Source of the DNA: a virus
DNA: 62,267 bases
Strand: one strand, 5' to 3'
IMG/VR virus record: IMGVR_UViG_3300023210_000034
Span: 1-62,267 of that record
The position numbers and the translations under genes were made by a program. The first letter of the stretch is position 1, and each line of letters begins with the position of its first letter. The notes beneath the pieces were generated by a model. That model did no database searches. It saw only the letters and a list, made by a program, of their open reading frames with translations, and was not told where the DNA came from. This document shows positions 4,788 to 31,931 of the stretch, one piece after another.

Positions 4788-5037
4788 AAAAACAAAAGTT
4801 GAATATTTTAGCGACGATTCCCTGTTCATGATAACGCACACAAAGAACGGCAAACGTCACAGTATCAAAGGCCCAGCGCAGTCCGAATGGTGGCGAACGG
4901 GGCAAATGGCAACTCGTTCATATTATGTCAATGATAGGTTACATAGGGTAGATGGCCCAGCATATATTCAGTGGCATCAAGATGGAACACTATGGCATGA
5001 AGACTATTATTTGAATGGTGAGAAACAAAATGACTGA
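4780..5037 (+). CDS. MORN-like repeat protein
   Basis: The 85-residue protein contains NDRLHRVDGPAYIQW and weaker repeats (KRHSIKGPAQSEWW, NGEK). This is the short beta-hairpin repeat 'NGxLHRxDGPA' found in phage and bacterial YwqK/MORN-like proteins. Such repeats are structural and often mediate binding. A better preserved paralogue is encoded on the other strand at 34400-34675. It overlaps both neighbours by eight bases. No activity can be inferred. Confidence 0.65.
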   Translation: MTEKTKVEYFSDDSLFMITHTKNGKRHSIKGPAQSEWWRTGQMATRSYYVNDRLHRVDGPAYIQWHQDGTLWHEDYYLNGEKQND

Positions 5038-6487
5038 AAAATCACAGAACCAATTGAACATCGAGAACATGCAAACACGCATGGACAAGGTAGAACAATC
5101 ATCATGTACTATGTGCACGGCTAAATGGTTGCAAACTACCCTGTATCTTATGAACGGAATGAACCACTCATGTCACCATCCAGTGGCACACAAAATTCCA
5201 CCAGAAGAACTCAAGGATAATCCAACCGCACTACACAACACAAAGTTCAAGAAAGAACAACGACAGCTAATGCTCGACGGTGAACGACCACCAGAATGCG
5301 AATACTGCTGGAACATCGAAGACCTAAAGGGAGACCATATCAGTGATCGTACCTATAAGTCAACCGATGAACAATGGAGCATGCCATACCTCGATAAGAT
5401 CATGGAAGCTAAAGCAACAGGTAACATCAACCCAAGCTATCTTGAAGTCGCATTCGAAAACACATGTAACTTCAAATGTGCGTACTGCTCACCAGAAGTG
5501 TCATCCAAATGGATGGAAGAAATAAAACAACATGGTCCATACACAACCTCGTGGTTGACAGGGAGCCTGACTTGGTTACAAGACTCAGGAAGAATGCCAC
5601 TACCAAACCGCGAAGACAATGTGTACGTGGATGCCTTTTGGGAATGGTGGCCCGACCTATACCAAGACCTGAACACATTCCGTATCACTGGTGGCGAACC
5701 ACTACTAAGCAAAAACACATGGAAGGTGCTTGAGTACATAAAAGAGAACCCACGTGAAGACTTCAATCTTGCCATCAATACCAACCTTGATGTTCCCGAA
5801 GAGTTCATTAATAAACTGATCCAGTATCATAACGATATCGCACCACATATCAATAGCTTCGAAATATATACATCATGTGAAGCCAAGGGCGATGCCGCTG
5901 AGTATATCCGCTATGGTATGGACTACACTCGATTCATGAAGAACGTTCATCGGGTACTAGCGAACACCGAAGCACGTGTGAACTTCATGATAACCTTCAA
6001 TGTGTTGAGCCTAGGCACCTTCCAAGACTTCTTGAAAGATATCTGGAACCTTAGATCATACTACAACGAATCAGACGCAATGAACCGTATCCCAATGATG
6101 ATCTCATATCTGCGCTGGCCACCGTTCCTGAACGCACAACTAGCAACAGATTACATAAAAGATATCTTCATACACCACATCAATGAATTCATTGATGCTC
6201 ATATGCGTGACACAAGCCCAACTGATAAAGCCAGATTCTATCTGGAAGAAAAAGATCAGATCGATAGGCTATGTGAATACCTCAGAGATCGTCCAGAGAC
6301 AAATGCACGAGATCAAACCGATCTAGTCACATTCGTGAAAGAATACGACAAACGTAGAGGAACTGATTTCGCAACAACGTTTCCCGAACACGATAAACTA
6401 ATACAGTGGTCATACCCACAACAAGGATACCACGATAATGATTGGGATCAGGGAGATGGAGATATAGCACATGTCACACCAATTTAG
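5030..6487 (+). CDS. Radical SAM protein (twitch type), paralogue 1
   Basis: The start is placed at 5030 (MTEKSQ), which overlaps the preceding gene by eight bases. The 485-residue protein has an N-terminal CTMC (Cys26, Cys29) followed by HSCHHP and CEYCW. It then has the radical SAM cluster motif CNFKCAYC (Cys146, 150, 153), which binds a 4Fe-4S cluster and S-adenosylmethionine, and RITGGEPLLS near residue 220. The extra N-terminal cysteines could bind a second cluster. The next gene is a close paralogue. The reaction and substrate are not predictable from this architecture. Confidence 0.9.
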   Translation: MTEKSQNQLNIENMQTRMDKVEQSSCTMCTAKWLQTTLYLMNGMNHSCHHPVAHKIPPEELKDNPTALHNTKFKKEQRQLMLDGERPPECEYCWNIEDLKGDHISDRTYKSTDEQWSMPYLDKIMEAKATGNINPSYLEVAFENTCNFKCAYCSPEVSSKWMEEIKQHGPYTTSWLTGSLTWLQDSGRMPLPNREDNVYVDAFWEWWPDLYQDLNTFRITGGEPLLSKNTWKVLEYIKENPREDFNLAINTNLDVPEEFINKLIQYHNDIAPHINSFEIYTSCEAKGDAAEYIRYGMDYTRFMKNVHRVLANTEARVNFMITFNVLSLGTFQDFLKDIWNLRSYYNESDAMNRIPMMISYLRWPPFLNAQLATDYIKDIFIHHINEFIDAHMRDTSPTDKARFYLEEKDQIDRLCEYLRDRPETNARDQTDLVTFVKEYDKRRGTDFATTFPEHDKLIQWSYPQQGYHDNDWDQGDGDIAHVTPI

Positions 6488-8012
6488 ACTACAAGAAAAC
6501 GGAGACCCCTTTCACGAGGAAGATAACGTTCTTACCATGAAAGACTTCCTGAATGATACAGGTTGTGGGATGTGTCTTGCCAAATGGACACAGGTAACCA
6601 TGCATCTAGGTACGGGACACACTCATTCATGCCATCACCCCGCAGCACATAAAATACCACTGGAAGAAATTCAAGCAAACCCTGCAGCATTACATAACAC
6701 AGAGTTCAAGAAAGAACAACGTAAATTAATGCTGAACGATAAGAAGCCAGACGAGTGTGACTATTGCTGGCGCATCGAAGACGCCAATGAACTCAGTGAT
6801 CGATACCATAAATCATTGGACTCATTCAGCTTCAACAATCGCAATGAGATCATTAAACTGGATGGCGATGAAGACGTGTACCCATCATATGTAGAGGTAA
6901 GCTTCTCTAACGTATGTAACTTCAAGTGCGGGTACTGTAGCCCTCAATATAGCTCAACATGGACCGAAGAGATCAATCAACATGGTCCGTATAAACTATC
7001 ATCAGATGGCTTCGAATTCAATGGCCTTGATCCAGATAAAACAAACATCCCAAACAATCAAGAGAACCCATACAAAGACGCTTGGTGGGAATGGTTCCCC
7101 GAAGCATACAAGCACATGAAGGTACTTCGCATCACTGGCGGCGAACCACTACTCAGCAAAGATACAATGAGAACCATTGACTTCCTCCTAGAGAACCCCA
7201 ATCCCGAACTGGACTTCGCGATCAACACAAACTTGTGTCCACCGCCCGAGCTATGGGAAGAGTTCAAGCTCAAGATATTCAGACTTACTGAACGTGGATG
7301 TGTGAAGAAGTTCACATTGTTCACAAGTATAGAGAATTGGGGAGCACGAGCCGAGTACAACAGATTTGGTATGGACTTCAACCAATTCCGTTCGAACTTC
7401 CATGAGTTCCTTGATGAAGTTCCACGTGCCAGAATAACCATCATGGCAGCGTTCAACATCATGAGCATCACATCATTCAAACGATTGCTGATGTGGGTGC
7501 TGGAACTGAAGAAGAAGTACAATCATAGCGCATACATGGAAGGTGTGTATGATCGCACCGGCATCAAATATACAGATAACTCCGAAACCCTGAACATCCG
7601 TCGAGAAGTCAACGGGTCCGGATACGACAGAGTGGGTATCGATATCCCATATGTTAGAGCACCACACTTCCTTGACGCTCATATCGCCACACCCGAACTT
7701 CTGGAAGAATACCTGTTGCCAGCCGTGGAATTCATGTACCAGAACCTCGGACACTCAGGATGGTCAGACAACCTTGGCTTCAATGTGCACGAAGCAGATA
7801 AACTAAAAAGAATCTTCACTGATCTATCCAACAAGATCACATACCATGGCAACTACCCCAAGGCGCAGGGCGTTGGCCAAGACCTCAATCGAGCACGGTT
7901 CTACAAATTTGTCGAAGAACACGATGCCCGTAGAGGTACAAACTTCTTAGAAGCGTTCCCCGAGATGGAAGACTTTTATAATATATGCAAAACAGAAAGC
8001 GATAACTATTAA
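6471..8012 (+). CDS. Radical SAM protein (twitch type), paralogue 2
   Basis: The 513-residue protein repeats the plan of its upstream neighbour: CGMCLAKWTQ, HSCHHPAAHKIP and CDYCWRIED at the N-terminus. These are followed by CNFKCGYC (Cys149, 153, 156) and LRITGGEPLLSKDT. The two overlap by 17 bases and arose by tandem duplication, but have diverged widely in the C-terminal half. Keeping both copies suggests different substrates or a two-step reaction. The cluster motif makes the family assignment firm; the function is not known. Confidence 0.9.
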   Translation: MSHQFRLQENGDPFHEEDNVLTMKDFLNDTGCGMCLAKWTQVTMHLGTGHTHSCHHPAAHKIPLEEIQANPAALHNTEFKKEQRKLMLNDKKPDECDYCWRIEDANELSDRYHKSLDSFSFNNRNEIIKLDGDEDVYPSYVEVSFSNVCNFKCGYCSPQYSSTWTEEINQHGPYKLSSDGFEFNGLDPDKTNIPNNQENPYKDAWWEWFPEAYKHMKVLRITGGEPLLSKDTMRTIDFLLENPNPELDFAINTNLCPPPELWEEFKLKIFRLTERGCVKKFTLFTSIENWGARAEYNRFGMDFNQFRSNFHEFLDEVPRARITIMAAFNIMSITSFKRLLMWVLELKKKYNHSAYMEGVYDRTGIKYTDNSETLNIRREVNGSGYDRVGIDIPYVRAPHFLDAHIATPELLEEYLLPAVEFMYQNLGHSGWSDNLGFNVHEADKLKRIFTDLSNKITYHGNYPKAQGVGQDLNRARFYKFVEEHDARRGTNFLEAFPEMEDFYNICKTESDNY

Positions 8013-8013
8013 C

Positions 8014-9480
8014 ATGTTCACAGAAAATGATATCAATTGGATTTACGAATACCATACTCCAGGTGGAGCATGGCCAAACGCTCAAGGATTCCCGAACTAC
8101 GGGGATAACCATTGGCTAGCACCACACTCCGGAATTACATACGTTCCAACACCACAAGATAGCGTGTTCATGCCACAACAGAATTTCGGACAATACCGAG
8201 ATAGCTTGTTCGAGTGTACGGAAAAAGGGGCAAACCCGAACACTAACCCGTTCAGCTTCATATATTATAAGCCGGGCAACATAAACAGTATGTCATGGCT
8301 GTACTCACAATGGAAACGTGGAGAACATCCACAATGGATATACCCCATTGATACGCTACATACTGACTTCTTCAAAATTGGTACCGACTACTTCGATACC
8401 ATGAAGCTAATCAACCCAAACATCATGCGATATATTCGTAGAACAGATGTGCCTAAATGCTACCTGATGTTCATGGTGGCGCTAGAAGGCGATGCCAGTG
8501 CTAATTACAATCACTGCCTGAACCGAATGGAAACATGGGCAAAACACAACAACATCCCTGCCGAGAAAATATTACTAGGAGATGGCAACGCTCGATTCAA
8601 TGAATCAATGGAAGAACCATCAACTGTTCGACATTTCTTTTATCATGGCACACAAACACAATCAATGTATTTCGCAGATGAATTGTCCAAACACTTGAAT
8701 TTGGGATTGAACATCAGAGATATCAATCTCACAGACGAACAACGACACGTGCTTACCGAATATCGACGCAAACAACGACCAACGCACAAGTATATCACAC
8801 TGAATAGAGCACCGAGAAGTCATAGATATGTATTAGTGTTCACCCTGATGGAACAACAAATGCAGGACGATGGGCTTATCAGCCTCGGATCAGATGTAGC
8901 AACCAACTTCGCAGGGCAACGATGTGATTGGTTCGATGATGACACCGCAGCCCGATATGAACAATGGTATAATACCACACATAAAGAGGGTCTGGAACTT
9001 GATTGTGACCTCAGTATCAATCGTGCCGCCGACTTCAACTTCGATCTATATAATCAAGCATACTATCAATTAGTTAGCGAAACATATTTCGAGGACGCAA
9101 ACTATGAAAATGCTAACAGCTTCATTTCAGAGAAAACATACAAACCTATCGCCAATCTTCAACCATTCGTGCTGTACAGCCCAGCCAAAACGTTGGCCGT
9201 TCTACACAAGCTCGGATATAAAACGTTTGACAAATGGTGGGACGAGAGCTATAATGATATCGAGGATGATCAAGAACGCCATTTAGCTATCATTGAACTG
9301 ACCAAAACACTGAACGCAATACCACTCGAAGAATGGCAACTGATGATCATGGATATGCTGCCAACATTGTTGCATAACTACGAACTGTTGTTGAATATTT
9401 TCGAATGGGAAAACACAGTGCTGTATAAACAAATGAAATCTCTACTACGAACCGGAAACATCATAGACTATCAACCATGA
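8014..9480 (+). CDS. Possible glycosyltransferase, GT-B-like C-terminus
   Basis: The 488-residue protein starts one base after the preceding stop. Most of it is unfamiliar. Near residue 368 it has FISEKTYKPIANLQPFVLYS followed by LHKLGYKTFDKWW. That resembles the nucleotide-sugar-binding region of fucosyltransferase/exostosin-like glycosyltransferases ('EKxxxxI...PfI'). It lies between radical SAM genes and overlaps the next by four bases, so a role in the same pathway is likely. The assignment is tentative and rests on that one region. Confidence 0.4.
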   Translation: MFTENDINWIYEYHTPGGAWPNAQGFPNYGDNHWLAPHSGITYVPTPQDSVFMPQQNFGQYRDSLFECTEKGANPNTNPFSFIYYKPGNINSMSWLYSQWKRGEHPQWIYPIDTLHTDFFKIGTDYFDTMKLINPNIMRYIRRTDVPKCYLMFMVALEGDASANYNHCLNRMETWAKHNNIPAEKILLGDGNARFNESMEEPSTVRHFFYHGTQTQSMYFADELSKHLNLGLNIRDINLTDEQRHVLTEYRRKQRPTHKYITLNRAPRSHRYVLVFTLMEQQMQDDGLISLGSDVATNFAGQRCDWFDDDTAARYEQWYNTTHKEGLELDCDLSINRAADFNFDLYNQAYYQLVSETYFEDANYENANSFISEKTYKPIANLQPFVLYSPAKTLAVLHKLGYKTFDKWWDESYNDIEDDQERHLAIIELTKTLNAIPLEEWQLMIMDMLPTLLHNYELLLNIFEWENTVLYKQMKSLLRTGNIIDYQP

Positions 9481-11366
9481 AAAACCTGTACCTAGTACAA
9501 ATGAGCCTAAGTCTACCCGGCTCCAAGTTCAGACACATCCCATACAGTGTGGGATTGTTGTGGTCGTATGCCTCGCAGTTCACCCGCATCACCGATAACT
9601 ACGACCTGAAAGGCATACTGTTCAACAAAGAACCAACCCAATCAGCCGTACAAAAGATTGAAGACCCCGATGTTATTGGGGTCAGTATATACACATGGAA
9701 CTACAATTACAGCATCAAATTGATCGAGGAAGTGAAACGACAGTACCCCGATTGTACTGTCATCGTTGGTGGTCCGGGTATACCAAATGATCCAGACAAA
9801 GCGAAGGTATTCATGCGCACCAATCCCGAAGTGGACTTCATGGTACACCACGAAGGCGAAGTCGTGTTCACTGATCTCCTTGACAGTCTTCTTGATCCCC
9901 TTGGCCTTGACCACAAGGATATCCCAAGCATCGTGTACCGTGATGATCACCAGATCAAACAAAACACTGGCTCTGGTCGCATCGATGATCTCGGTACTAT
10001 CCCATCACCATACCTGACCGGCGTCTTCGATGACCTGATCAATGAATACAAAAACAACACCGATATCGTACTGAATGGTGTGATGGAAACCAATAGAGGT
10101 TGCCCATTCCAATGTACCTTCTGTGATTGGGGTGGCCTAACCTTCCAGAAACTCAAGAAATTCGACATCGATAGAGTGAAGAAAGAGATCGCATGGTTCG
10201 GTGTGCATGAAGTCGAAATGATCGTGAACGCCGATGCGAACTTCGGTATCTTCAAAGATCGTGACCTACGTATCGCTGAACATATCGTCAGTACCAATAA
10301 ACAATTCGGATATCCTAAGATGTTCGATACAAACTACAACAAGAACAACAGCGAACTTGTGCTACAGATAGCCAACACCCTATCAACAATCAATAGACGC
10401 TTCACAGTGGCCCTACAGAGCACACATGAGCCAACACTGAACGCAATCAAGCGCGGTAACCTAGAGACCAGCGATCTCGATAAAATACTGGAGATCGCTA
10501 AACGAAATAACGTCGTCGTCAGTACCGAACTGATCACCGGACTACCATTGGAAACACTCGATAGCTGGAAGCAAGGCATCGCAACTATGATCGAAAAAGG
10601 TATCATGGTAGAAGCATTGCCACTGAGTCTATTAGAGAACTCTGAAATGAATGACCCAGCGTACCGAGCCAAGTACGGGATGATAACACATAACTCAGAG
10701 CTTCCATTCGGTTCATACGTGCCTGAATATCAAGACGTGATCACGTCCACCAGTACAATATCCCATGAAGAAATGGCCGAACTATGGATGTTCAATTGGA
10801 TAACCAATAGTATGCATTCACTCGGCTTCACTCACCTGATCTCACGATATATGCATGATCATCACGGTATATCATATATCGATTTCTATGACCAATTGTT
10901 GACAGACTTCCGGAACGACAGCGTGTTGTCAGCCATTACCGCTGAATTCGAAGTCTATGCGATGAATCATAATTACGTGAACTTCTATATCACATCAAGA
11001 CCAGAATGGCTAACATATATTAACAACCATCGTCGGGATTTAATGGATGTCCTCGTGGCTATGTGTCACAGTATGATCAGACCAATAGACCCACGCATTA
11101 TGATCAGACCAATAGACCCACGCATTCATGATCTATTGATATATCAATTCATGAAACAGGCAACTAATAAAAAACCTGTAGCAGAAGCCATTGAGTTCAA
11201 ATACAATTGGGATCATTGGGAACGTACAGGTGAACTCGAACACAAACAAACCAACATACTGTTCGAACATCCCGGCATGGGCAACTTCTACGACTTTGAA
11301 AACTTCATCGCCTACACCCGTAGAAACTCAGGATGGATGGTCAAAACATCAGAGGTATTAATATGA
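9477..11366 (+). CDS. Cobalamin-binding-type radical SAM protein
   Basis: The 629-residue protein has an N-terminal Rossmann-like B12-binding-type domain (residues about 1-150, including DPDVIGVSIYTWNYNYSI and TVIVGGPG). A radical SAM core with CPFQCTFCDWGG (Cys209, 213, 216) follows. B12-type radical SAM enzymes typically methylate unreactive carbons or rearrange ring systems. The C-terminal domain carries an exact nine-residue tandem duplication (MIRPIDPRI twice) encoded by a 27-bp repeat. The gene overlaps its upstream neighbour as ATGA. The domain assignment is strong; the reaction is not known. Confidence 0.9.
   Translation: MKNLYLVQMSLSLPGSKFRHIPYSVGLLWSYASQFTRITDNYDLKGILFNKEPTQSAVQKIEDPDVIGVSIYTWNYNYSIKLIEEVKRQYPDCTVIVGGPGIPNDPDKAKVFMRTNPEVDFMVHHEGEVVFTDLLDSLLDPLGLDHKDIPSIVYRDDHQIKQNTGSGRIDDLGTIPSPYLTGVFDDLINEYKNNTDIVLNGVMETNRGCPFQCTFCDWGGLTFQKLKKFDIDRVKKEIAWFGVHEVEMIVNADANFGIFKDRDLRIAEHIVSTNKQFGYPKMFDTNYNKNNSELVLQIANTLSTINRRFTVALQSTHEPTLNAIKRGNLETSDLDKILEIAKRNNVVVSTELITGLPLETLDSWKQGIATMIEKGIMVEALPLSLLENSEMNDPAYRAKYGMITHNSELPFGSYVPEYQDVITSTSTISHEEMAELWMFNWITNSMHSLGFTHLISRYMHDHHGISYIDFYDQLLTDFRNDSVLSAITAEFEVYAMNHNYVNFYITSRPEWLTYINNHRRDLMDVLVAMCHSMIRPIDPRIMIRPIDPRIHDLLIYQFMKQATNKKPVAEAIEFKYNWDHWERTGELEHKQTNILFEHPGMGNFYDFENFIAYTRRNSGWMVKTSEVLI
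11073..11126 (+). repeat. Perfect 27-bp in-frame tandem duplication
   Basis: Bases 11073-11099 are repeated exactly at 11100-11126 inside the B12-type radical SAM gene, adding nine residues (MIRPIDPRI) without disturbing the frame. The perfect identity at the DNA level suggests a recent slippage event, or an assembly artefact. Confidence 0.95.
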
Positions 11367-11689: not shown

Positions 11690-11691
11690 AC

Positions 11692-12062: not shown

Positions 12063-12358
12063 TGGCAAAGTATAAAAAGATCAACCTGACCAAAGAAGAG
12101 AAGGTAGAGATCGCACAACGCATAACATCACGCAAAGGTTTACGTGAATTCATTGGACGAAGAGTGCAAGCCCTATGGGTAGCACCATCAAGCAAATCAG
12201 TGTATTCACCCCTGCCACTACTAGAAGAACAACTGAAATTGATGCACAATGATACCTTTTGGGGTACCGATCCTGTCCTAGAAGATAAATCAATAGCCGA
12301 ACTACAAGCAAGGCTCGACGGAAACTATCGCATCGAACGTGTAGAGAGCAAGAACTAA
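12062..12358 (+). CDS. Hypothetical protein, 98 residues
   Basis: This soluble, basic and mostly helical protein begins MAKYKKINLTKEEKVEIAQRI. It sits between the coiled-coil gene and the epimerase and shares a single base with each of its stop and start junctions. No family is recognised. Confidence 0.55.
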   Translation: MAKYKKINLTKEEKVEIAQRITSRKGLREFIGRRVQALWVAPSSKSVYSPLPLLEEQLKLMHNDTFWGTDPVLEDKSIAELQARLDGNYRIERVESKN

Positions 12359-13419
12359 TGACATTCAATATTATCGGCGGCAACGGACCAAACTTCATCC
12401 GAACTGTCCTCGTAACAGGATCAGCAGGATTCATAGGCACATACGTATGCCAACTCCTATTGGACAGAGGCTTCAAAGTCCGTGGCATCGATAACTACAG
12501 CAAATATGGTTACATCAAACGATCACACGATGACCACCCACACTACGAATTCATCGAAGGCGACTGTAAAGATGTCGATCTAATGCGAGAAGTCATGGCT
12601 GGTGTCGATCATGTCATACATCTCGCAGCACTAATCGGGGGCCTACGCTTCTTCAATGATCATGCATACGATATGATGGCAGAGAACGAACGCATTTGCG
12701 CAAGCTTATTCGACGCAGCCATCAATGCCCACCTGACCGATAACCTCAAAAAGGTCACATTGATAACAAGTTCTCAAGTGTACGAAATGACAGAAGAATT
12801 CCCAACACCAGAAGACTCAACCCTAATGGACCCACCACCACGATCAATGTATGGCTTCCAAAAACTCGCAGCAGAGTATTTCGCCGAAGGTGCGCGACTA
12901 CAACACGGACTACCATACACCATCCTTAGACCATTCAATGCTATCGGTACAGGAGAAGAACCCGGCACGTATGTCGATAAAGCTGGACAAGAAGTAGCAA
13001 TGAACCATGTCGTACCAGAATTCATCATGAAATGTCTCAAATCAGGCGGAACTGAACCCATCGAAATGCATGGATCAGGTAAACAAGTACGTGACTTCAC
13101 ACATGGTGTGGACTTCGCGACAGCAGTGGCAGAAACCCTCGACATCAATGCTTGCAAAAACCAAATATACAACGTGTGTGGTGGTATGCGATTATCAATG
13201 GAAGACCTATTACGAGCAATTCATTCACTAGTATATCCTGATCTCGATCCTAACTCACTACGTATTAGATACGTCAAATCATTCGATAACGATGTAATAT
13301 ATCGATATGGGGATAGCTCAAAATTGTACCGAACCACGGGATGGAAACCAACCAAAGACCTATACGGCAGTCTACAAGAAATAATCGATTATGTTAAAAC
13401 TACCGTCGATAAGGATTAA
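12358..13419 (+). CDS. NAD-dependent nucleotide-sugar epimerase/dehydratase
   Basis: This extended short-chain dehydrogenase of 353 residues has the NAD-binding motif TGSAGFIG (Gly21, 24, 27) and the catalytic Y165-x3-K169 (YGFQK). It also has the family pattern RPFNAIGTGE and a late VRDFTHGVDFATA. It is close to GalE/GDP-mannose-epimerase-type enzymes, which convert nucleotide sugars. The N-terminal extension before the first strand is about 14 residues. The surrounding glycosyltransferases suggest it supplies an activated sugar. The exact substrate cannot be told. Confidence 0.85.
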   Translation: MTFNIIGGNGPNFIRTVLVTGSAGFIGTYVCQLLLDRGFKVRGIDNYSKYGYIKRSHDDHPHYEFIEGDCKDVDLMREVMAGVDHVIHLAALIGGLRFFNDHAYDMMAENERICASLFDAAINAHLTDNLKKVTLITSSQVYEMTEEFPTPEDSTLMDPPPRSMYGFQKLAAEYFAEGARLQHGLPYTILRPFNAIGTGEEPGTYVDKAGQEVAMNHVVPEFIMKCLKSGGTEPIEMHGSGKQVRDFTHGVDFATAVAETLDINACKNQIYNVCGGMRLSMEDLLRAIHSLVYPDLDPNSLRIRYVKSFDNDVIYRYGDSSKLYRTTGWKPTKDLYGSLQEIIDYVKTTVDKD

Positions 13420-15184: not shown

Positions 15185-15315
15185 CATCTGAACGTAAAAA
15201 ACAAAAAGAACTCGATGATCTGAAATTCAAACGTCAAATGAAACGATTGGATATTATCACAGTATGTGGACTGCTAGCCCTGATCGCAGTGATAACATCA
15301 ATGGTGATGATATGA
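15181..15315 (+). CDS. Small single-pass membrane protein, second of a pair
   Basis: The 44-residue frame begins MTSERKKQKELDDLK and ends in a hydrophobic segment (ITVCGLLALIAVITSMVMI). It has the same length and charged-head plus C-terminal anchor plan as its upstream neighbour. It overlaps both neighbours by four bases, which fits the operon style here. Function unknown. Confidence 0.5.
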   Translation: MTSERKKQKELDDLKFKRQMKRLDIITVCGLLALIAVITSMVMI

Positions 15316-16223: not shown

Positions 16224-16224
16224 T

Positions 16225-23936: not shown

Positions 23937-24907
23937 TCTTTAATCCTCTGACTTGTGGGGGATACCCATGTGTTCTCTTGTTGTAGTGTTCGATCTTTGG
24001 TACATTTCTTCCTACATTGTGATGGAGCGTTGTCATAATCCTCTAATGATCTAATGAAATCCTGTGACCGTTGATCAATGATCTGCTGTAATGTATGATA
24101 CCTGATACTGTAGTTATCCCTCTGAATGCCAAAGGGTGAAACCTCTAGGTAATCATTGTTCGAGGCTATCCAACAACATGGAGTATAGACTCCTTCTGCG
24201 CTGATGTAATGTAGATTGCCCGTGCTGCATAATGGTTGGATCATCTTGTTATTAGGCTCGATCACTGGCTTGGCGGTCTTGTTCGAACTTACCCAATCAT
24301 CTGATGGGCGTAAGGGATCATCCAGTCCCTTGTATCGATCACTCTTGATCAATGTGAATTCATCTAACCCTATCTCGGTACATAGTTCACGTGCCTCTTC
24401 AAGCTGGTGTTCGTTATGCTTGAATACGATTAGTTCCCAATGAGATCGTGCTTTGGAGGTAGCCATAATACGCATACCTGCCTCAATAGAGTCCCAATCA
24501 GCATTCTCTCTATAGATATGATTGGTGTCACGTAACCCATCAACACAGAAGCTCATGGTGTCATGTTCTTGTAGTATCGAAGCAGTCTTTTCCCACCAGT
24601 CGGTCGAACGATATGAACCATTCGTCCGTATTGAGATCATTTGATTATGCTCTTTCAGATATTCAAGATACCCATGGAAGTTGTTATGATAGATCGCATC
24701 ACCATAGTTACCACATAGTAGAAACTTGTAACGCTTCTTCAATATCTCAGGGGTAAACGCTTGCTTGAAGACATCCAATGGTAACGAGGTATTTGTATTA
24801 GCTTCTGGGAATACGACACGAGAACATTTGGAACAGTTCACGGCACACTTCGAGACGATCTCTACATGCCACGATTTTATATCATTCAGGGAGATCGGTG
24901 CTGTCAC
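23933..24907 (-). CDS. Radical SAM protein, homologue of the 19517 gene
   Basis: The 324-residue protein has CAVNCSKC (Cys21, 25, 28), LLCGNYGDAIY and RTNGSYRS. The C-terminal cysteines (MIQPLCSTGN, TPCCW, CRKKC) form a twitch-like auxiliary cluster region. It aligns along its length with the frame at 19517-20614 and shows where that one should start. It overlaps the gene at 24882 by 26 bases. The reaction is unknown. Confidence 0.88.
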   Translation of the reverse strand: MTAPISLNDIKSWHVEIVSKCAVNCSKCSRVVFPEANTNTSLPLDVFKQAFTPEILKKRYKFLLCGNYGDAIYHNNFHGYLEYLKEHNQMISIRTNGSYRSTDWWEKTASILQEHDTMSFCVDGLRDTNHIYRENADWDSIEAGMRIMATSKARSHWELIVFKHNEHQLEEARELCTEIGLDEFTLIKSDRYKGLDDPLRPSDDWVSSNKTAKPVIEPNNKMIQPLCSTGNLHYISAEGVYTPCCWIASNNDYLEVSPFGIQRDNYSIRYHTLQQIIDQRSQDFIRSLEDYDNAPSQCRKKCTKDRTLQQENTWVSPTSQRIKE

Positions 24908-26132
24908 GATATACTCCTTTGATGCCTATGGTATGTTTGTCAAACATCTCTTGAAAGGCTTCTCTATCGTTTGATTTAGGTACACACATTCCACAACCAC
25001 ACATGCTATTAGGGCAGGTGATGATTGGTATGGTTCCATTTGCCTCTATTTGTTCCCTCAAGAACAAGTTGATCTTATCGAACTCTGTTATGGTACCAAT
25101 AGGTCCAGTTGCTCCATTGAAGTCGGCCCGACATGTTTGGTGATGATACACTAAATCGTTACCCTGTTCAATATGTAGGAAGAACCAATTCACCATACAG
25201 TCCCATCCTTTAAAGCGGGTATCATTAACGAACTTAAGTTTGTCCCATTCTTTGGTCTCGGAGTCCCTTAAGCATAGTGTACGTCCACCACAACACATAC
25301 GCCCGAGCTTACGCCCTACTTGTTTCTGGTTAGATTTCTCTTTATAGTCTGGTTCGAGGGATTTTTCCTGTGGTTCTTCGGTACTGGTTGTGGAGTCTTG
25401 TAGTTTATTGCCGCTTACTTCAGCGTTCTTTTTATCCCAAAAGGTTTTCATGTATTCTAATTGCCATGCATCATATGTATGAACAACCTTTCTCATGATA
25501 CCATCGGTGTCGGGGAACCAATCTGAATTGAAGCTTGACCCATCACCAATGACCCGAGGGGTGAATGCGATATCATTTGGTATAAGGAAGTTTTCGATTA
25601 AGTCCACACATTCTTCGAAGTGCTCTGCATGCATCATGACATTAACTGTCAACCATGTATTAGCATCGGGGGAGTTCTTAATCAATAGCATGTTCTCTTT
25701 GGCACGTTGTTTGAGTTTCTCTGGACCTTCGGTATGATATGATATCGTCATACCAGAGAAGTACTTCAATATTTCTTGATGTTTATCTGGATGCCATGTA
25801 CCATTTGTTGTCAAGCCGAGGTTAAAGTTCTCGCTGTATTGTTCTTTGATATGTGCGGCGAGTTCAAAGAACGCTGGGTTCACCACCGGTTCACCACCAG
25901 TGAATGATATAGTTGCCTTTGTCCAATCATCTGAATGATGTTGTTTGTATATTTCGTAGTATTCATTCAAGTGTGCGGCGGTAGTTTTAAGTTCTTCGAT
26001 GCTGGAATGAGGGCTATAGTTGTTATGCATATATCCGGTACAGTACGAGCAATCGAAGTTGCATCGTTTACCTAAGTCCCATATGATCATCATTTTATTG
26101 AATGAGTCTGAATCGATTGTGTCAAATGACAT
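24882..26132 (-). CDS. Radical SAM protein with cysteine-rich C-terminus
   Basis: The 416-residue protein has CNFDCSYC (Cys24, 28, 31), ISFTGGEPVVNP and TTNGTWH. Its C-terminal third is cysteine-rich (MCCGGRTLC, WDC, QTC, TCPNSMCGCGMC), consistent with SPASM-like auxiliary Fe-S clusters. SPASM enzymes often modify peptides or proteins, but that is family knowledge and not shown here. It overlaps the gene at 26122 by 11 bases. Confidence 0.9.
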   Translation of the reverse strand: MSFDTIDSDSFNKMMIIWDLGKRCNFDCSYCTGYMHNNYSPHSSIEELKTTAAHLNEYYEIYKQHHSDDWTKATISFTGGEPVVNPAFFELAAHIKEQYSENFNLGLTTNGTWHPDKHQEILKYFSGMTISYHTEGPEKLKQRAKENMLLIKNSPDANTWLTVNVMMHAEHFEECVDLIENFLIPNDIAFTPRVIGDGSSFNSDWFPDTDGIMRKVVHTYDAWQLEYMKTFWDKKNAEVSGNKLQDSTTSTEEPQEKSLEPDYKEKSNQKQVGRKLGRMCCGGRTLCLRDSETKEWDKLKFVNDTRFKGWDCMVNWFFLHIEQGNDLVYHHQTCRADFNGATGPIGTITEFDKINLFLREQIEANGTIPIITCPNSMCGCGMCVPKSNDREAFQEMFDKHTIGIKGVYRDSTDLPE

Positions 26133-27033
26133 GTTGCACTCCTAGAATTTTGGTTGAACCCATTATGCGGGATTTGATTTCTTGGACATCTCCGATGACC
26201 CGTCCTACTATTGCTTTACCTATTGCTGCTCTAGGATCATCGCGTGTTATCCCTAGAGTGCTTAGATAGTTTGAATTACGATGGAACCACTCTTCGAAGT
26301 GAGCGGCCCGTTCAGTATTATAGAACGGCCCCCTATCGAATTGCAAGCAAAAATCTGCACTGTATTTCCATTGTGGTATCAATGCTTCTTCCCCTGCATG
26401 AGTTCCATCTTCTTGATCTTTATAGTAGTCCCAAAGATGCTTACCTTTATGACAATAGTTCAAAGAGATGTCGCCTGGATCATGTAATACGGTAAATGAA
26501 TCGAAGTCTTGATCTTCCATTGCAGTAGCTTCACGGTTGAAGAAGTGTGATACTATTCTACCTGCTGCACCCAAGTCTTCCCAACGATGGATCAATACAT
26601 TGTATGTTTCGATAGCGGTTCTGATATCACTTGGCGCTGCTACATACCATGGATTAGGGTCTTCGTTTTTCCCTCTCATATCCTCGAAGAACTTATGACA
26701 TCTATTGGAGTCTTGTTGTGTCATGTATGGTCCTTGAATTTTGAACATAGGGTCTTTTGGATTGTATGTATTTCGTCCTTCAAGGAACATTGATTGGGGA
26801 TCATACAGGTTTATGGTATCGATGATCGTGTTCAATTTGTTGATGATATCTAGTTCTGACCATTCGCTATTGAGGTTATATATTCTATCGGGTTGTGCTA
26901 TGGGATGATGTATGCGATTTTCACAAACATGTATCAATGCCTGTTTCCATTTTTGACCTAATGGTGTATCTGCGGCATCGAATTGTATGATTTCATTGGT
27001 TTGATTTGGTTTCTGTAATGTTAATTCAAACAT
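26122..27033 (-). CDS. Conserved-looking hypothetical protein, 303 residues
   Basis: The protein is soluble and rich in His, Trp and acidic residues, including the blocks HDPGDISLNYCHKGKHLWDYY and WKYSADFCLQFDRGPFY, which look like an enzyme active site. I recognise no family. It is translationally coupled to the radical SAM gene at 24882 (11-base overlap), so it may be a partner enzyme. ATAAATA (27039-27045) lies five bases before the ATG. Confidence 0.6.
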   Translation of the reverse strand: MFELTLQKPNQTNEIIQFDAADTPLGQKWKQALIHVCENRIHHPIAQPDRIYNLNSEWSELDIINKLNTIIDTINLYDPQSMFLEGRNTYNPKDPMFKIQGPYMTQQDSNRCHKFFEDMRGKNEDPNPWYVAAPSDIRTAIETYNVLIHRWEDLGAAGRIVSHFFNREATAMEDQDFDSFTVLHDPGDISLNYCHKGKHLWDYYKDQEDGTHAGEEALIPQWKYSADFCLQFDRGPFYNTERAAHFEEWFHRNSNYLSTLGITRDDPRAAIGKAIVGRVIGDVQEIKSRIMGSTKILGVQHVI

Positions 27034-27423: not shown

Positions 27424-27432
27424 ATTGTACTC

Positions 27433-28845
27433 CTATGTGTTATTTATCATGTTGTGTTGTTGATAGTTCAGTAACTTCCGTTGTAACCCATTGGTGAGCC
27501 ATCTAGCTGCCCCTTCCAATTGTAGTTCTTTCACGGTATCATCGAACTTCAAGTATCTCTGGATACGTACCTGTTCTGTGTTCTCTCCGTATTCCCAATC
27601 ATATGAGAGCACGTTATCTGGATTGAGTTTTAATTCGATATTATTGTTTGTCGCCCATTGATGGAGTGGTGTACTATGAATGATTACTGCTGGGTTATTC
27701 ACTGTGATATTATATGTTCCCGTGTATTCTGGGTTCATTTTGATTTGATCATGGATAGTTTGGATCATTTGTAGTGACATCTGGAAGTCTTCTTCGGTTT
27801 CGGTTGGGTATCCCACCATCATCAGTATATCTATATCGATATTTCGTTGTACGAGTTCCTTCAGCATTGTGAACAGGTCTTGATCGGTGAATGTTTTGGT
27901 CATATGTTCACGGACTATTGTGCTACCGGATTCGACTCCGATGATGGCTCTACTGTATCCGGATTGTTTCAGGATATCGTAGTCATTTGCAGTCATTTGG
28001 TGTTCTGGTCTACAAATGAATTGGCCCCACCATTTGATGTTCATATTTTTCTCTATAATATTGTGGCACCAATCTCTCATGGCTTTCATACTACCATTGA
28101 TAAGACTGTCCGTGAAGTAGAATTTATCTATCCCATGGGTTTGATTTAGGTATTCGAGTTCGGATGCCACACTAATTCCTGTACGGAATCTATATGTTGG
28201 CCATATCGTTGCGATGTTACAGAACGTACAGTTTTTGACGCATCCCCTTGATCCTGTCACCAATAAAATACCATTGTCCTCATACATGTCCAAATCAAGG
28301 TCTGAGTAATCTGGTATTGGTATTTGGTTCATATCCTGTAGTTGGACTGGTTTGAATACGTTCGCCCGTGAGGTATTGTTTTGCAGTAGTTCCACTAGGG
28401 TTTCTTCTGCGTCACCGGAGATGAAAGCGTCTATGAGGTTATTTTCCTGTAGTTCTTTAATGAACGTTACACCTATACTGATGTGGGCACCGCCTATGAC
28501 TGTTTTGATGTTTGATTTTTGTTTAATTTTGTGCAGGAGTTTTCTTGCAACGGGTATTTGCTTATAGCTGAACAGGGATATCCCTATCCATGTGGGGTTG
28601 GTTTCGATCAATTGATTTGCCCATGCATCGATGCATTGCTCATCGATATCGAGAATATTTTCGGTGATGTTATCTACTGTTCGAAAGTATTCTTTACTTC
28701 CTACTGTATTCCAATATTCGATATTGAAATCGACATACTTCGCTTTGAATCCATTATCATTGAGCACGGCCTTAAGGATAGCGGGACCAATCAATGGGTA
28801 CTTTCTTTCTAGCGGGGGTATTGCACATATTACGATATCAAGCAT
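27433..28845 (-). CDS. Cobalamin-binding-type radical SAM protein
   Basis: The 470-residue protein has an N-terminal B12-binding-type domain (residues 1-150: LIGPAILKAVLNDNGF, WIGISLFSYKQIPVA, TVIGGAHISIG). A radical SAM core follows with CVKNCTFC (Cys202, 206, 209), YFTDSLING and IGVESGS. It ends in a PTETEEDF-type motif, as in methylthiotransferase-like and magnesium-protoporphyrin cyclase-like enzymes. It is the second B12-type enzyme in the window. Substrate unknown. Confidence 0.9.
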   Translation of the reverse strand: MLDIVICAIPPLERKYPLIGPAILKAVLNDNGFKAKYVDFNIEYWNTVGSKEYFRTVDNITENILDIDEQCIDAWANQLIETNPTWIGISLFSYKQIPVARKLLHKIKQKSNIKTVIGGAHISIGVTFIKELQENNLIDAFISGDAEETLVELLQNNTSRANVFKPVQLQDMNQIPIPDYSDLDLDMYEDNGILLVTGSRGCVKNCTFCNIATIWPTYRFRTGISVASELEYLNQTHGIDKFYFTDSLINGSMKAMRDWCHNIIEKNMNIKWWGQFICRPEHQMTANDYDILKQSGYSRAIIGVESGSTIVREHMTKTFTDQDLFTMLKELVQRNIDIDILMMVGYPTETEEDFQMSLQMIQTIHDQIKMNPEYTGTYNITVNNPAVIIHSTPLHQWATNNNIELKLNPDNVLSYDWEYGENTEQVRIQRYLKFDDTVKELQLEGAARWLTNGLQRKLLNYQQHNMINNT

Positions 28846-29563
28846 TATTCATCAATGATTGGCCAGTAACCCCGACGACGAAGTGTGTGCGTTCGGTATC
28901 GCCCATATTCTCGGCATAATGTTCGAATCCAGCATTAACGAAGTACACATGGCCATCGACTGGTATATGTAGTACTTCGAAATCATCCTTGGGAGAATGT
29001 CTGAAGCCTAGTTTACAGTCATCATTGGTTGTCAGTGCGATATGATATCTCATTCCGTATCGTGTACAATAATCGATATGAGGTTTGATTTGAAAGTCTG
29101 GTTGAATTCTGGCAAACCTTGCTCTTGAGATAGGGTCTTGGAATTGTTCTAACACATCACGAATGTATGGTGCATTATCCATCATAGGTCTGAGTTGATT
29201 GTACGCAGATTCATTCAAGCCTGATTTAGCTTTGTCCATATCTTGTTTGTATTGCGATAGGGTACCGCCAGTGGCATCGATTGTTTTAGTAGCGTTTTGA
29301 TCTTCGTTGTATTCTGTACAGATGATTTGTTCATACGAGTGGTATTCCCCATCATCGTTTTGGAAGACCTGTGTGAGTCTGTCGCGACCATGGGTGAGTT
29401 CTTTGATCAAGGGTGCATTGGTTTTCATGTCGTTCCACCCACCATTCAGTTCTTCGAGAATTTTAAGTTCTGCCATGATTTTTTCTGGATCGAATTGTAG
29501 ATCGAGTTTTTCATAGAACGGAAAGTGTTTACGTGTTAGCATTGAATTTTGATCGGTATTCAT
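28838..29563 (-). CDS. 2OG-Fe(II) oxygenase, aspartyl-hydroxylase-like
   Basis: The 241-residue protein shows H162-x-D164 (PHIDYCTRYGMRYHIALTT), His215 (NAGFEHYAENMGD) and Arg225 (TERTHFVVG). These are the complete set of iron and 2-oxoglutarate ligands in the order of an Asp/Asn beta-hydroxylase. The N-terminal 140 residues are unfamiliar. It overlaps the B12-type radical SAM gene by eight bases and the gene at 29529 by 35. Confidence 0.75.
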   Translation of the reverse strand: MNTDQNSMLTRKHFPFYEKLDLQFDPEKIMAELKILEELNGGWNDMKTNAPLIKELTHGRDRLTQVFQNDDGEYHSYEQIICTEYNEDQNATKTIDATGGTLSQYKQDMDKAKSGLNESAYNQLRPMMDNAPYIRDVLEQFQDPISRARFARIQPDFQIKPHIDYCTRYGMRYHIALTTNDDCKLGFRHSPKDDFEVLHIPVDGHVYFVNAGFEHYAENMGDTERTHFVVGVTGQSLMNNA

Positions 29564-30173
29564 CGAATGATATTCCTTTATCTAATAGGGTATTTAGGGT
29601 ATCCTCGGTGGTGGTATAAATCAAATGTTGCCAACAAGAGGCTTGATCTTGATCACACACTGGATACAGCATTTCGTGGTTGGTCCATTCTAGTGGTGTA
29701 CTGTTGTTGTAGTTCGCGGCGGTTTTCTTTGCCCATCTCGTTTTGAATGGTTCTTTGGAGATAAACATCACGTTGCTATTATCTGGCATAAATGCTTGTT
29801 GTTGCATTACCATTGCTGGCCCGATCACATTCACCCGTGGGTTCAATGATGGTTGGTTTCCGGCGACACGGTTCCATGTTCGTATGCTTGGATCGAAATA
29901 CAAACGATTTAAGCATCGTGCTGCTTGGCCATAACAGTCTCTATGTAATAGAGTACTGAACGCCACCACGGAGTAATCCTCGACGAGCAATGATACACAT
30001 AGTTGGTCTTCGACCTTAAGGCGATCTGGTTCATAGTTTCTGATCATCTTCTGGTCGGATGGATCATTTTTGGTAAGGATCGCGTCTCGGTATTCTTCGA
30101 ACAGTCGGATGTATTCTTCGTCAGGACTAATCGTGATCAGTTCATATCCTTGGATGATCTGTTCGCGTTTCAT
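29529..30173 (-). CDS. Possible GNAT-like acyltransferase
   Basis: The 214-residue protein has a strand pair and helix arrangement (VSLLVEDYSVVAFSTLLHRDCYG, then LNRLYFDPSIR). This looks like the start of a GNAT domain, with a central VIGPAMVMQQQ stretch. It is flanked by 2OG oxygenases, and a GNAT could add an acyl group in the same pathway. The call is tentative; no clear acetyl-CoA loop is seen. Confidence 0.35.
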   Translation of the reverse strand: MKREQIIQGYELITISPDEEYIRLFEEYRDAILTKNDPSDQKMIRNYEPDRLKVEDQLCVSLLVEDYSVVAFSTLLHRDCYGQAARCLNRLYFDPSIRTWNRVAGNQPSLNPRVNVIGPAMVMQQQAFMPDNSNVMFISKEPFKTRWAKKTAANYNNSTPLEWTNHEMLYPVCDQDQASCWQHLIYTTTEDTLNTLLDKGISFDEYRSKFNANT

Positions 30174-30526
30174 ATTGCAAATCCGAAGCTTAATACGTAT
30201 CGTGATCCTTGAACCTTTGACACTTGATGTTCATAGATATCTGGACGGATCAGGATGACTCTGTTGAATAGATTGAAGATCACTCCACCTTCTTCGGTTG
30301 TGAACTCCCCGCCGGATTTAGGTTTCTTGATAACGATGTTCAGTCGATAATGCTTGAGCTTCTTCCACTTGCCACGCATTGGGTCTTTGTGTGGTGGGAG
30401 TTCTGATTGATCTGGCATCTTGAGGATATAGCAGTCGCCCATGAAAGGCCACGTGATTGTGTATATTCTCATTCGGAAGTATCCGGTTTCCTGTCTACCT
30501 GCTTGCCATTTGAAATATTCTGCCAT
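30170..30526 (-). CDS. 2OG-Fe(II) oxygenase, compact
   Basis: The 118-residue protein contains LPPHKDP (His46, Asp48), RLNIVIKKPKSGGEF, then IYEHQVSKVQGSRYVLSFGF with His100 and Arg109. The full ligand set fits in a domain near the minimum size for the fold. It overlaps the next oxygenase gene by a single base and the GNAT-like gene by four. Confidence 0.7.
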   Translation of the reverse strand: MAEYFKWQAGRQETGYFRMRIYTITWPFMGDCYILKMPDQSELPPHKDPMRGKWKKLKHYRLNIVIKKPKSGGEFTTEEGGVIFNLFNRVILIRPDIYEHQVSKVQGSRYVLSFGFAI

Positions 30527-31191
30527 TAATCGATCTTTGCAATGAACACCAAGCGTTGAAATGGTCCGATGGCATTCATTCCGGCGTGGAGTTGTGTGTT
30601 TGGGAATCGTATAGCTTTGTTGTACCGGTGGAAGATCACTTCGTCTGGCCGGAAGTATGGATACATTTCGTGACTACAGTGGTCGAGCATTGACTTCACG
30701 GTGTCGGAATGATCCATCCATGGAGAAGGGACCATGAATTTTCCCATGTTCTCTGAGGTGATTGGAGTGTACCCCATGGTTCGATAGATTTCGAGTTTGT
30801 CTTCGGAGGTATCATTGTCCACCGCGATGACCTTTTGATCACAATGGTCAGTGAACAGCACTATGCCTTGGTCTTGTTGTTCGCCAAGGCTGACGCAAGT
30901 GTTCACATGGTATCCCGACACATTGACGGGATTATTGTCGGTATGTATTTGGAATGGTTCTGGTGCATCTGACATGAAGCCCCGTGTAATTTGGTAGACA
31001 TCCGTTCCGAACCAATCACTAAGTGTTGCTGGATCGATAATTGACTTGATGGTTTTCCCCCGCAACGGGACGAATCTTCTATCGATTGCACCATTCATTG
31101 TGATAGCATCATTACCGGCACCATTCCACAACTCATTGAAGGCTTGCAATTCTTGGTCACTCAGGAAGTTATTACGGGTCACGGTTGTCAT
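30526..31191 (-). CDS. 2OG-Fe(II) oxygenase-like protein
   Basis: The 221-residue protein has QIHTDN (His83, Asp85), an intermediate insertion, and LHAGMNAIGPFQRLVFIAKI (His202, Arg213), consistent with a 2-oxoglutarate/iron oxygenase. It is larger than its neighbour and only distantly similar. Tandem placement of two such enzymes suggests successive hydroxylations or different positions on one substrate. Confidence 0.65.
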   Translation of the reverse strand: MTTVTRNNFLSDQELQAFNELWNGAGNDAITMNGAIDRRFVPLRGKTIKSIIDPATLSDWFGTDVYQITRGFMSDAPEPFQIHTDNNPVNVSGYHVNTCVSLGEQQDQGIVLFTDHCDQKVIAVDNDTSEDKLEIYRTMGYTPITSENMGKFMVPSPWMDHSDTVKSMLDHCSHEMYPYFRPDEVIFHRYNKAIRFPNTQLHAGMNAIGPFQRLVFIAKID

Positions 31192-31931
31192 GATTTTGTT
31201 CCTATTAGTTCAATTAAGCTTCCGCCGATATCCACCTCCCACCATTGTTCACCAAACATGGATCGTTTAGGGTGAGCATGATGGGTGTTATGCCAGCCTT
31301 CTCCCCATACCAAATATCCGGTAAAGAGATTGTTGGTACTGTGGTCATTGGTCACGTGTGGTTTGTATCCATACAAGTGGTTCAGGTTGTTCACGGCACT
31401 CCCTAGGTTCCATAGGATGGCCGCTGGAGCGAGGTACGCTGCGATCAGGAGCATTGGGTCAAGTAGCAACAGCGCGACGATGATCAGGGCGTGTATCTTG
31501 AAGTAGTTCTTATGTAGGAATAGATGGAATGGGTCACGTAGCATATTGGTCACGTACTTGATATGTACTGGTTCGAACATACTAAGGAACTGTACCTTGA
31601 AAATTCCTTTGGTTAATGGAGAATGCGGGTCTTTCTCGGTGTCGGAGAATGCATGATGTTTTTTATGTGATGCTACCCAACTGATTGACGAGCCGGTCAG
31701 TCCGTATATCCCACAGATAGTGCCGAAGTATTTAAACCATGTTGGCATATTCCATGAGTTATGAGAGAGACCACGATGAAATGTCATAGTCATGCCGAAG
31801 CATCCGGTCAGGAAGTACACAAACAATGTGATCCCGAAGTGATATGTTTCTCCATATAGAAACAATCCCAGCAAACCGACATGTGCCAGCAACTGTAGCA
31901 GGAATAATTTCATTGAATCATGTGTTATCAT
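31188..31931 (-). CDS. Membrane fatty-acid desaturase (delta-9 type)
   Basis: The 247-residue membrane protein has the three histidine boxes of acyl desaturases in order: HRGLSH (His52, His57), HKKHH (His89-93) and HNTHH (His214-218). Hydrophobic segments around 8-45, 66-86 and 145-175 separate them. The di-iron enzyme introduces a double bond in acyl chains at the inner membrane, and would alter host lipid fluidity or make an unsaturated acyl donor. It overlaps the oxygenase gene by four bases and the deaminase gene by one. Confidence 0.88.
   Translation of the reverse strand: MITHDSMKLFLLQLLAHVGLLGLFLYGETYHFGITLFVYFLTGCFGMTMTFHRGLSHNSWNMPTWFKYFGTICGIYGLTGSSISWVASHKKHHAFSDTEKDPHSPLTKGIFKVQFLSMFEPVHIKYVTNMLRDPFHLFLHKNYFKIHALIIVALLLLDPMLLIAAYLAPAAILWNLGSAVNNLNHLYGYKPHVTNDHSTNNLFTGYLVWGEGWHNTHHAHPKRSMFGEQWWEVDIGGSLIELIGTKS

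Follow-up and report, generated by a model that had tools for sequence, protein, structure and literature searches.

The virus fragment IMGVR_UViG_3300023210_000034, a linear IMG/VR record of 62,267 bases that was analysed in full (the window), carries eight radical S-adenosylmethionine (rSAM) enzymes interspersed with glycosyltransferases (GTs) and other modifying enzymes. Judged from gene content and order, its first 32 kb appears to be a hypervariable 'host-recognition' cluster, bordered on one side by tail-fibre and baseplate genes and on the other by genes of DNA metabolism. Among the cells sampled, one rSAM type of this island, here called CHHP, occurred almost exclusively in Bdellovibrionota, and chromosomal islands of this phylum hold homologues of most of the window's cassettes, several of them closer than any phage gene found; both findings are new here. 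We favour, at a probability a little short of even, the reading that the island is a surface-glycoconjugate tailoring system, lying in the host-recognition cluster of a jumbo phage and swapped with Bdellovibrionota as the likeliest hosts; our statements on the product, on virion fibre or host envelope as its target, and on the host are inferences from these comparisons.

A preliminary description of this DNA had proposed eight rSAM proteins from their cysteine motifs, and the profile search that it put forward as its own check recovered rSAM cores in most of them: seven of the eight score above the PF04055 gathering threshold, and the remaining one, g42, is backed by NCBIfam and PHROG profiles. 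Because these matches are to full-domain profiles and involve more than CxxxCxxC, chance occurrence of the motif is excluded. Three proteins pass the 170-bit membership cut-off of the N_Twi_rSAM family (NF033640), namely the tandem CHHP N-twitch rSAMs g15 (5015..6487, + strand; PF04055 35.4 bits, NF033640 335.8 bits) and g16 (6471..8012, +; 29.9 and 293 bits), and the N-twitch rSAM g40 (22300..23364, -; 55.9 and 199.6 bits). The rSAM g43 (24882..26132, -; PF04055 45.4 bits) and g42 (23933..24907, -) fall below that cut-off, at 44.3 and 25.8 bits respectively; g42 has only a weak Pfam match (E 0.015) and resembles phrog_21308 (E 4e-14) and TIGR04317 (E 1e-12). The rSAM g35 (19517..20614, +; PF04055 35.3 bits) carries C-terminal SPASM-like cysteines, with PF13186 slightly under its cut-off. 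No ATG, GTG or TTG precedes the cluster motif of g35, where an ATC stands at 19517, 8 nt after GGAG and inside the end of the short-chain dehydrogenase (SDR) gene, and the first ATG (19709) would remove the motif; a non-standard start, a frameshift fusion or a base error is possible in this region (19480-19720).

The remaining two rSAMs, g18 (9477..11366, +) and g46 (27433..28845, -), had been described as carrying cobalamin-binding-type domains, and both do: each combines a B12 domain (PF02310) and an rSAM core (PF04055) in one chain, both above cut-off, which makes them class B cobalamin-dependent rSAMs. g18 is related to the C-methylases TokK, CysS and KedN5 (PDB 7kdx, 9n1b), with which it has in common the domain order and a CDWG after the cluster motif, and it aligns with the carbapenem methylase TokK over residues 17-502 (E 2e-77). 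Its score against the KedN5-type methylcobalamin rSAM C-methyltransferase model (NF033712) is 260.1 bits against a curated cut-off of 700; by sequence it is TokK/CysS-like rather than a filed member of the KedN5 family and, unlike these enzymes, it stands in no beta-lactam or enediyne context. In other phages g18-type B12-rSAMs were seen, by inspection, near Gmd-, Fcl-, DegT- and NeuB-like genes. The second B12-rSAM, g46, has no close characterised relative and scores 118.2 bits against the curated cut-off of 360 for rSAM_ladder_B12 (TIGR04072).

The island consists of two arms facing each other. The left (+) arm comprises g05, g11, g12, the tandem CHHP rSAMs g15 and g16, g17, g18, g22, g24-g26 and g34-g35, and the right (-) arm comprises g40-g51, followed by dCMP deaminase, thymidylate synthase (TS), dihydrofolate reductase (DHFR) and further DNA-metabolism genes. 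The GT8-like glycosyltransferase g05 (1179..2057, +) has no Pfam match and was placed in GT8 through the match of its family profile (A3) to a characterised GT8, glycogenin (E 7.6e-6); in relatives it is one of a tandem GT8-like pair adjoining tail-fibre genes, and its partner lies to the left of the window in the sister contig G001. The GT-A-type (GT2-like) glycosyltransferase g12 (3631..4593, +), of the long form, gave an AlphaFold2 model (pLDDT 85.7) that aligned best (Foldseek, VIA) to GT-A enzymes (B4GALNT1 Z 10.0, a Leptospira GT 9.8, WrtF 9.4 and ThuS 9.2) and also matched IspD/MobA nucleotidyltransferases of similar fold (Z 8.5-9.4), so that the model makes the GT-A fold plain but does not single out one reaction. 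Two further members of the g12 family (alignment A2) are the short-form GT2-like g24 (14362..15063, +; weak PF00535) and the long-form g25 (15264..16223, +). Their neighbour g26 (16156..16917, +), previously described as a methyltransferase, resembles one by motif only, in conserved class-I methyltransferase-like motifs (GGWYG...DID...DxIINTSCEH); it matched no Pfam family or other profile and its own profile found nothing credible in the PDB. g11 (3065..3634, +), between the GT8-like and GT2-like genes, corresponds to the #27 genes of relatives by position only and has no sequence match to them, and g17 (8014..9480, +), a conserved protein recurring in islands, is perhaps GT-B-like, which its model (pLDDT 59.6; weak matches only, none with E < 0.001) does not establish.

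The two dehydrogenases of the preliminary description are real by Pfam, being the NAD-dependent epimerase/dehydratase of nucleotide-sugar type g22 (12358..13419, +; PF01370 E 5e-45, PF16363 E 6e-33) and the SDR g34 (18894..19526, +; PF00106 E 2e-25). Its fatty-acid desaturase is equally well founded (g51, 31188..31931, -; PF00487 E 1e-15), and the overlap of neighbouring genes was found at 10 of the 12 junctions in the minus-strand run. Among the four proteins that it likened to 2-oxoglutarate (2OG) oxygenases, the aspartyl/asparaginyl beta-hydroxylase-like g47 (28838..29563, -) passes Pfam (PF05118 44.2 bits, gathering cut-off 22.6), g49 (30170..30526, -) is a possible member below threshold (PF05118 E 0.03, 14.6 bits), and g41 (23361..23936, -; an HTD...H motif by eye) and g50 (30526..31191, -) resemble such enzymes by motif only, with no Pfam hit. 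The possible acyltransferase, g48 (29529..30173, -), is backed by no profile hit.

The biosynthetic island of the preliminary description is supported, and so is the recurrence of such rSAM clusters in phages: IMG/VR contigs of 122, 98, 82, 60, 61 and 26 kb hold 13-14, 11, 10, 8, 8 and 7 PF04055 matches, respectively, and several rSAMs are likewise present in C57 (G044:C57), a syntenic contig of 335,231 bp described below. The recurrent core comprises a fibre gene, #11, two GT8-like genes, a long GT2-like gene, a CHHP rSAM, a short GT2-like gene, g26 and often a g42-type rSAM, and was found in at least eight contigs (G026, G030, G032, G034, G036, G037, C57 and the window's own phage). Where the window has its epimerase-family gene, C57, G037 and G030 carry a UDP-glucose/GDP-mannose dehydrogenase near the short GT. 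The cassettes outside the core vary from phage to phage, and the phage homologues of the non-core rSAMs are 25-39% identical, with none above ~39% in the phages compared. The earlier proposal that the eight rSAMs form one multistep pathway was therefore not sustained, since the conserved set is limited to the CHHP rSAMs, the GT8-like and GT2-like genes and g26, the other cassettes being exchangeable though found together. Its suggested refutation, independent cassettes never found together, had a mixed outcome: the genes are co-located, but they are mostly different genes each time.

Several smaller features of these islands were recorded. Five tandem small paralogues of 61-81 aa, g06-g10 (2054-3072), have an FRFKR-type motif in common, and the small basic proteins g27-g32 (17126-18595), which are partly paralogous and lie between the arms, apparently occur only in this phage and its sister contig. 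A Pfam-confirmed tryptophan-halogenase-family gene lies in the rSAM island of G037 (L068, 14137-15651), and a gene at ~85.3 kb of G041 clusters with it. Two small open reading frames (ORFs) were considered as substrate or precursor and rejected: #14, absent from the window and present in four phage contigs only, and #11, which stands beside fibre genes in the sister contig and is not rSAM-specific.

The window appears, from its gene content and synteny, to be part of an uncultured jumbo myovirus of the T4 superfamily, with a genome of ~335 kb if the size of C57 is taken. Its family B DNA polymerase g88 (51080..53788, -), of jumbo T4-superfamily type (phrog_262 E 7e-189), has its top isolate matches in Sinorhizobium phage Phosso (469 kb), Atu_ph07 (490 kb) and GAP32/RaK2-type phages (345-380 kb), and the flank genes g57-g89 have matches in phages only. 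The sister contig G001 (IMG/VR, 28.5 kb) matches most proteins of the window's first 18 kb at 99-100% identity (two small ones at 90-95%) and extends ~10 kb beyond the window's left end, where it carries the second GT8-like gene, #11, a tail-fibre-like protein (phrog_19602, Peptidase_G2-like) and a YHYH/baseplate-wedge protein. C57 was binned in a 'Neomarinimicrobiota' metagenome-assembled genome (MAG); its polymerase is 52% identical to g88 and it is collinear with the window over ~60 kb, in the order polymerase, g87, g77-g61, a variable rSAM arm, a conserved arm, fibres and a 5,265-aa virion protein. Because of these fibres and this virion protein, C57 is read as a misbinned jumbo-phage genome. 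It appears in public MAGs as L122/L124 (335 kb) and, with L137, L163, L164 and L167, was counted as phage by the presence of a fibre/GT arm or other phage-island genes; the MAGs in which these contigs seem misbinned are labelled Neomarinimicrobiota, Betaproteobacteria, Pelagibacterales/Pelagibacter and Rickettsiales. When the DNA polymerase, g46 and g43 were each used as query against viral contigs, in a kind of search that reaches only close relatives, no relative was recovered, and g15, g12 and g40 had no match among 50,697 phage records.

The cellular distribution of the CHHP rSAM points to Bdellovibrionota. A profile scan of 84,980 species genomes returned 77 loci, of which 57 bear Bdellovibrionota names (counted from titles) and several of the others are misbinned phage contigs. 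The protein was then counted in 192 Bdellovibrionota genomes, from the phylum (per NCBI) of a Halobacteriovoraceae MAG, and in 200 genomes of Pseudomonadota, sampled as the phylum to which a Pelagibacter MAG belongs. The single occurrence among the latter (1/200) was the centre genome itself, which bears a phage contig, and after its exclusion the CHHP rSAM was present in 47/192 Bdellovibrionota and 0/199 Pseudomonadota (Fisher p 1e-16). With the same genome dropped, the g12-family GT was found in 11/192 and 0/199, respectively, and ten of these 11 Bdellovibrionota also encode the CHHP rSAM, compared with 37 of the 181 without the GT (p 3e-6). Three contexts were seen in Bdellovibrionota: the CHHP rSAM with an ABC-2 exporter, a carbamoyltransferase and a DegT aminotransferase; the CHHP rSAM with GT2s, a PMT-like GT, an FAD protein, a g12-family GT and g26; and rSAM clusters without a glycan gene. 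In addition, the Bdellovibrionota genomes G045, G047 and G048 hold 16-50 rSAM matches each, with tandem arrays of up to about ten rSAMs (G045:C41, G047:C9/C12 and G048:C3; L108, L120 and L184-L189).

The most extensive counterpart is a ~47-kb chromosomal island (about 146-195 kb; L203, L199, L204) on the Bdellovibrionota contig G139:C34; it holds 14-15 rSAM matches as well as homologues of g12, g18, g24, g26, g35/g42, g43, g46, g47, g48 and g51. This 349-kb contig had been suspected as phage, which was ruled out by the position of the island between tuf/tRNA-Trp and secE-nusG-rplK; lpxC-, ruv- and proS-like genes were also noted near it by inspection. The island looks like an insertion at tRNA-Trp that breaks the usual tuf-secE-nusG order. 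In a second genome, G215, rSAMs and a GT2 pair follow pheT and are in turn followed by the phage-type arm #10-#11-GT8-GT8-g12; this GT8-type arm probably came from a phage, since no other genome of the Bdellovibrionota sample has the GT8-like family.

Exchange between phages and these bacteria is also suggested by individual genes. In a tree of the CHHP rSAM (105 rows) phage and bacterial sequences are intermingled, well-supported branches requiring at least six changes, and g15 groups with a chromosomal Pseudobdellovibrio gene (support 87), to which it is 55% identical as against 47% to any phage. The genes g43, g44, g46, g47, g48 and g51 have their better or sole matches among Bdellovibrionota loci. 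The best homologues of g43 (36% over 413 residues) and g46 (33%, E 4e-88) are on Bdellovibrionota chromosomes, the sole homologue found for g44 (26122..27033, -) is at a Bdellovibrionota rSAM/GT locus (31%, E 2e-41), the island homologue of g48 (32%, E 3e-18) adjoins a desaturase and a hydroxylase-like gene, and g51 shares 57% identity over 128 residues with a gene of a Bdellovibrionota island, compared with 38% with C57. Prediction of hosts from best cellular matches is an accepted yet soft method (PMC12619734), and by these matches Bdellovibrionota would be the likeliest hosts.

According to the favoured reading, that of a surface-glycoconjugate tailoring system, the GTs would build a glycan from nucleotide sugars, supplied through g22 here and through the similarly placed UDP-glucose/GDP-mannose dehydrogenase in relatives, and its later editing, by C-methylation, dehydrogenation, epimerisation or hydroxylation, would fall to the rSAM, B12-rSAM, 2OG hydroxylase and desaturase. 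The product would decorate virion fibres, which is slightly favoured, or the host envelope, and the cassettes would be exchanged between phage and Bdellovibrionota. The glycan is supported by the glycogenin match of the GT8-like family, the GT-A fold of g12 and the nucleotide-sugar enzymes g22 and #19, and a radically C-methylated, C-H-tailored glycan or glycoconjugate would be the simplest common reading of the enzymes. Bdellovibrio displays MAT adhesins that resemble phage fibres and attach to prey glycans (PMC10769870), and these would be a natural candidate for the place of a shared fibre or glycan modification. A bolder version, to which we give a distinctly smaller chance than its opposite, holds that Bdellovibrionota are the hosts of an uncultured jumbo-phage clade whose island is the phage form of their own multi-rSAM surface-modification islands, that fibre, GT and rSAM genes move between predator and phage, and that an undescribed radical-tailored glycan or fibre modification is common to both and serves prey or host recognition.

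Several observations weigh against the tailoring system or the host proposed for it. The window island has no flippase, polymerase or exporter, there is no known substrate or product for any of the eight rSAM enzymes, and several of them are as close to peptide maturases as to anything else. The island is shared with Bdellovibrionota only in part, the GT8-like family being found in 1/192 genomes, and N-twitch rSAMs also occur alone in this phylum, by ATP-synthase or nuo genes and without glycan genes. Pseudomonadota was the sole contrast phylum, and gene sharing need not imply a host, as predators could acquire phage genes from infected prey.

An unlikely alternative is that the rSAM, B12-rSAM and 2OG enzymes act on a virion protein or on a peptide resembling a ribosomally synthesised and post-translationally modified one, with the GTs glycosylating the same protein. 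It would suit the best NCBIfam relatives of several window rSAMs, which include peptide and protein maturases, the aspartyl/asparaginyl-hydroxylase type of g47, and the one Bdellovibrionota chromosome in which the fibre-adjacent #10, #11, GT8-like pair and g12 are grouped beside rSAMs. Yet no conserved short precursor gene was recognised beside the rSAMs (among conserved ORFs of at least 60 aa, with no systematic precursor search), #14 is confined to four phage contigs and missing from the window, and the nucleotide-sugar enzymes would be left unexplained. That the island instead makes a diffusible small molecule or supports host metabolism during infection is rather improbable: g18 is closest to the natural-product methylases TokK and CysS, genes for a tryptophan halogenase, an amidinotransferase-like protein and carbamoyltransferases occur in relatives, and a secondary metabolite has been proposed for a similarly composed cyanophage cluster (PMC7824862), but no carrier-protein, non-ribosomal peptide synthetase, polyketide synthase or exporter gene was recognised, and the constant place beside tail fibres suggests a surface role.

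The genes may also have no common product at all, being independent cassettes gathered in a hypervariable region, as the variation of non-core rSAMs and their partners between islands, their 25-39% identity, and the swapping of similar modules between phages CP220 and CPt10 (PMC2853527) would allow. We regard this as similarly improbable in view of the core synteny repeated across phages, the co-occurrence of GT and rSAM in Bdellovibrionota (p 3e-6) and the presence of g46, g47, g48 and g51 homologues together in one chromosomal island. Very unlikely is a role in DNA base hypermodification, in which a glycosylated or otherwise modified base would be made with the adjacent dCMP deaminase, TS and DHFR. 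These genes do lie directly downstream of the right arm on the same strand (31931-35393), and QueE-like proteins were seen in relatives by inspection; this reading was downgraded because C57 lacks TS and DHFR at that place, and it fits poorly with a core arm that adjoins fibre genes rather than replication genes and with Bdellovibrionota homologues that sit with glycan or membrane genes.

Phages with many rSAMs are not new, and an rSAM-loaded hypervariable island of large phages was already known. The preliminary description knew of no phage rSAM set of this size, but precedents are provided by the Campylobacter phages CP220 and CPt10 (Firehammervirus; Timms et al. 2010), with 11-12 rSAM genes and an interchangeable five-rSAM module (PMC2853527; our recount for CP220 is 11), and by the T4-like marine genome TARA_ERS488813_N000010, with 12, which Nishimura et al. 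2017 treated as iron-sulphur metabolism (PMC5332604). CP220 and CPt10 resemble the window in having nucleotide-diphospho-sugar transferases beside rSAMs, near baseplate or fibre genes, but their rSAMs are only ~25% identical and their host and phage family differ. The CP220 module contains an amidinotransferase-like gene, of which the window has no counterpart in tblastn with the pentein-family proteins of relatives, and no match to the CHHP rSAM was found in isolate phages. The TARA genome is likened to the window by description, not sequence, in its similar rSAM load and T4-superfamily genome.

The host recognition cluster of pelagimyophages is hypervariable, flanked by tail fibres and VrlC, and contains GT and rSAM cassettes (PMC7029224), and the window's island matches it in place and character. 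A flank with a tail-fibre and a VrlC/YHYH-type virion gene is present in G001 and C57; on the other side, where pelagimyophages have gp14, the window has DNA-metabolism genes, and gp14 was not found there, though no search was aimed at it. The Pelagibacter phage Mosig EXVC030M has a comparable set of island enzymes, namely an rSAM, two Asp_Arg_Hydrox proteins, a fatty-acid desaturase, an aminotransferase and an epimerase, but is a 141-kb Kyanoviridae phage with 2 rSAM matches, and its match to g35 is 28% over half of the length of g35. Cyanophage clusters for capsular polysaccharide or halogenated products combine 2OG oxygenases, a carbamoyltransferase, a halogenase and a GT (PMC7824862), and differ in their gene families and in that no rSAM is mentioned in that paper. 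For Bdellovibrio and radical SAM together, the open library searched gave no paper that addresses the subject in title or abstract.

Outside the island, the right flank of DNA-metabolism genes (33489..46499, -; TS, DHFR, g61-g63, g68 and g71-g77) is largely syntenic with C57, whose corresponding flank lacks TS and DHFR. It includes a gene pair that is syntenic across the jumbo relatives (38372-41655), consisting of a MoxR-like ATPase (phrog_1297) and a VWA/metallopeptidase-like protein (phrog_1314), the latter named 'HNH endonuclease' in PHROGs, a label that is probably misleading. The sister contig L090 has a GIY-YIG homing-endonuclease-type gene beside fibre genes (3897-4643; Pfam/PHROG), which a gene of the window (42437-43126) resembles by eye. 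In the relatives L066, L082, L093 and L180, QueE-like (7-carboxy-7-deazaguanine synthase-like) and phosphoribosyltransferase-like proteins lie near g76/g77, which hints that some of these phages have 7-deazaguanine in their DNA. Within the island, g23 (13400..14317, -), SGNH-hydrolase-like by eye, has a 29% match at the syntenic position of C57 and no Pfam hit. No tRNA and no Rfam family were found in the window.

Phages rich in rSAMs have been noted since 2010 without an assigned function, and the present comparison offers three handles on them: a conserved core (GT8-like pair, GT2-like pair, CHHP N-twitch rSAM and g26) in a fixed place by the tail fibres; counterparts on the chromosomes of Bdellovibrionota, whose predatory laboratory cultures would make the chemistry directly testable; and a candidate host group for a jumbo-phage lineage of which no cultured member was found here. 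The non-trivial addition is the specific multi-gene link between a phage island and Bdellovibrionota chromosomes, which, if the favoured reading of a surface-glycoconjugate tailoring system is true, would amount to a new layer of surface chemistry common to these predators and their phages.

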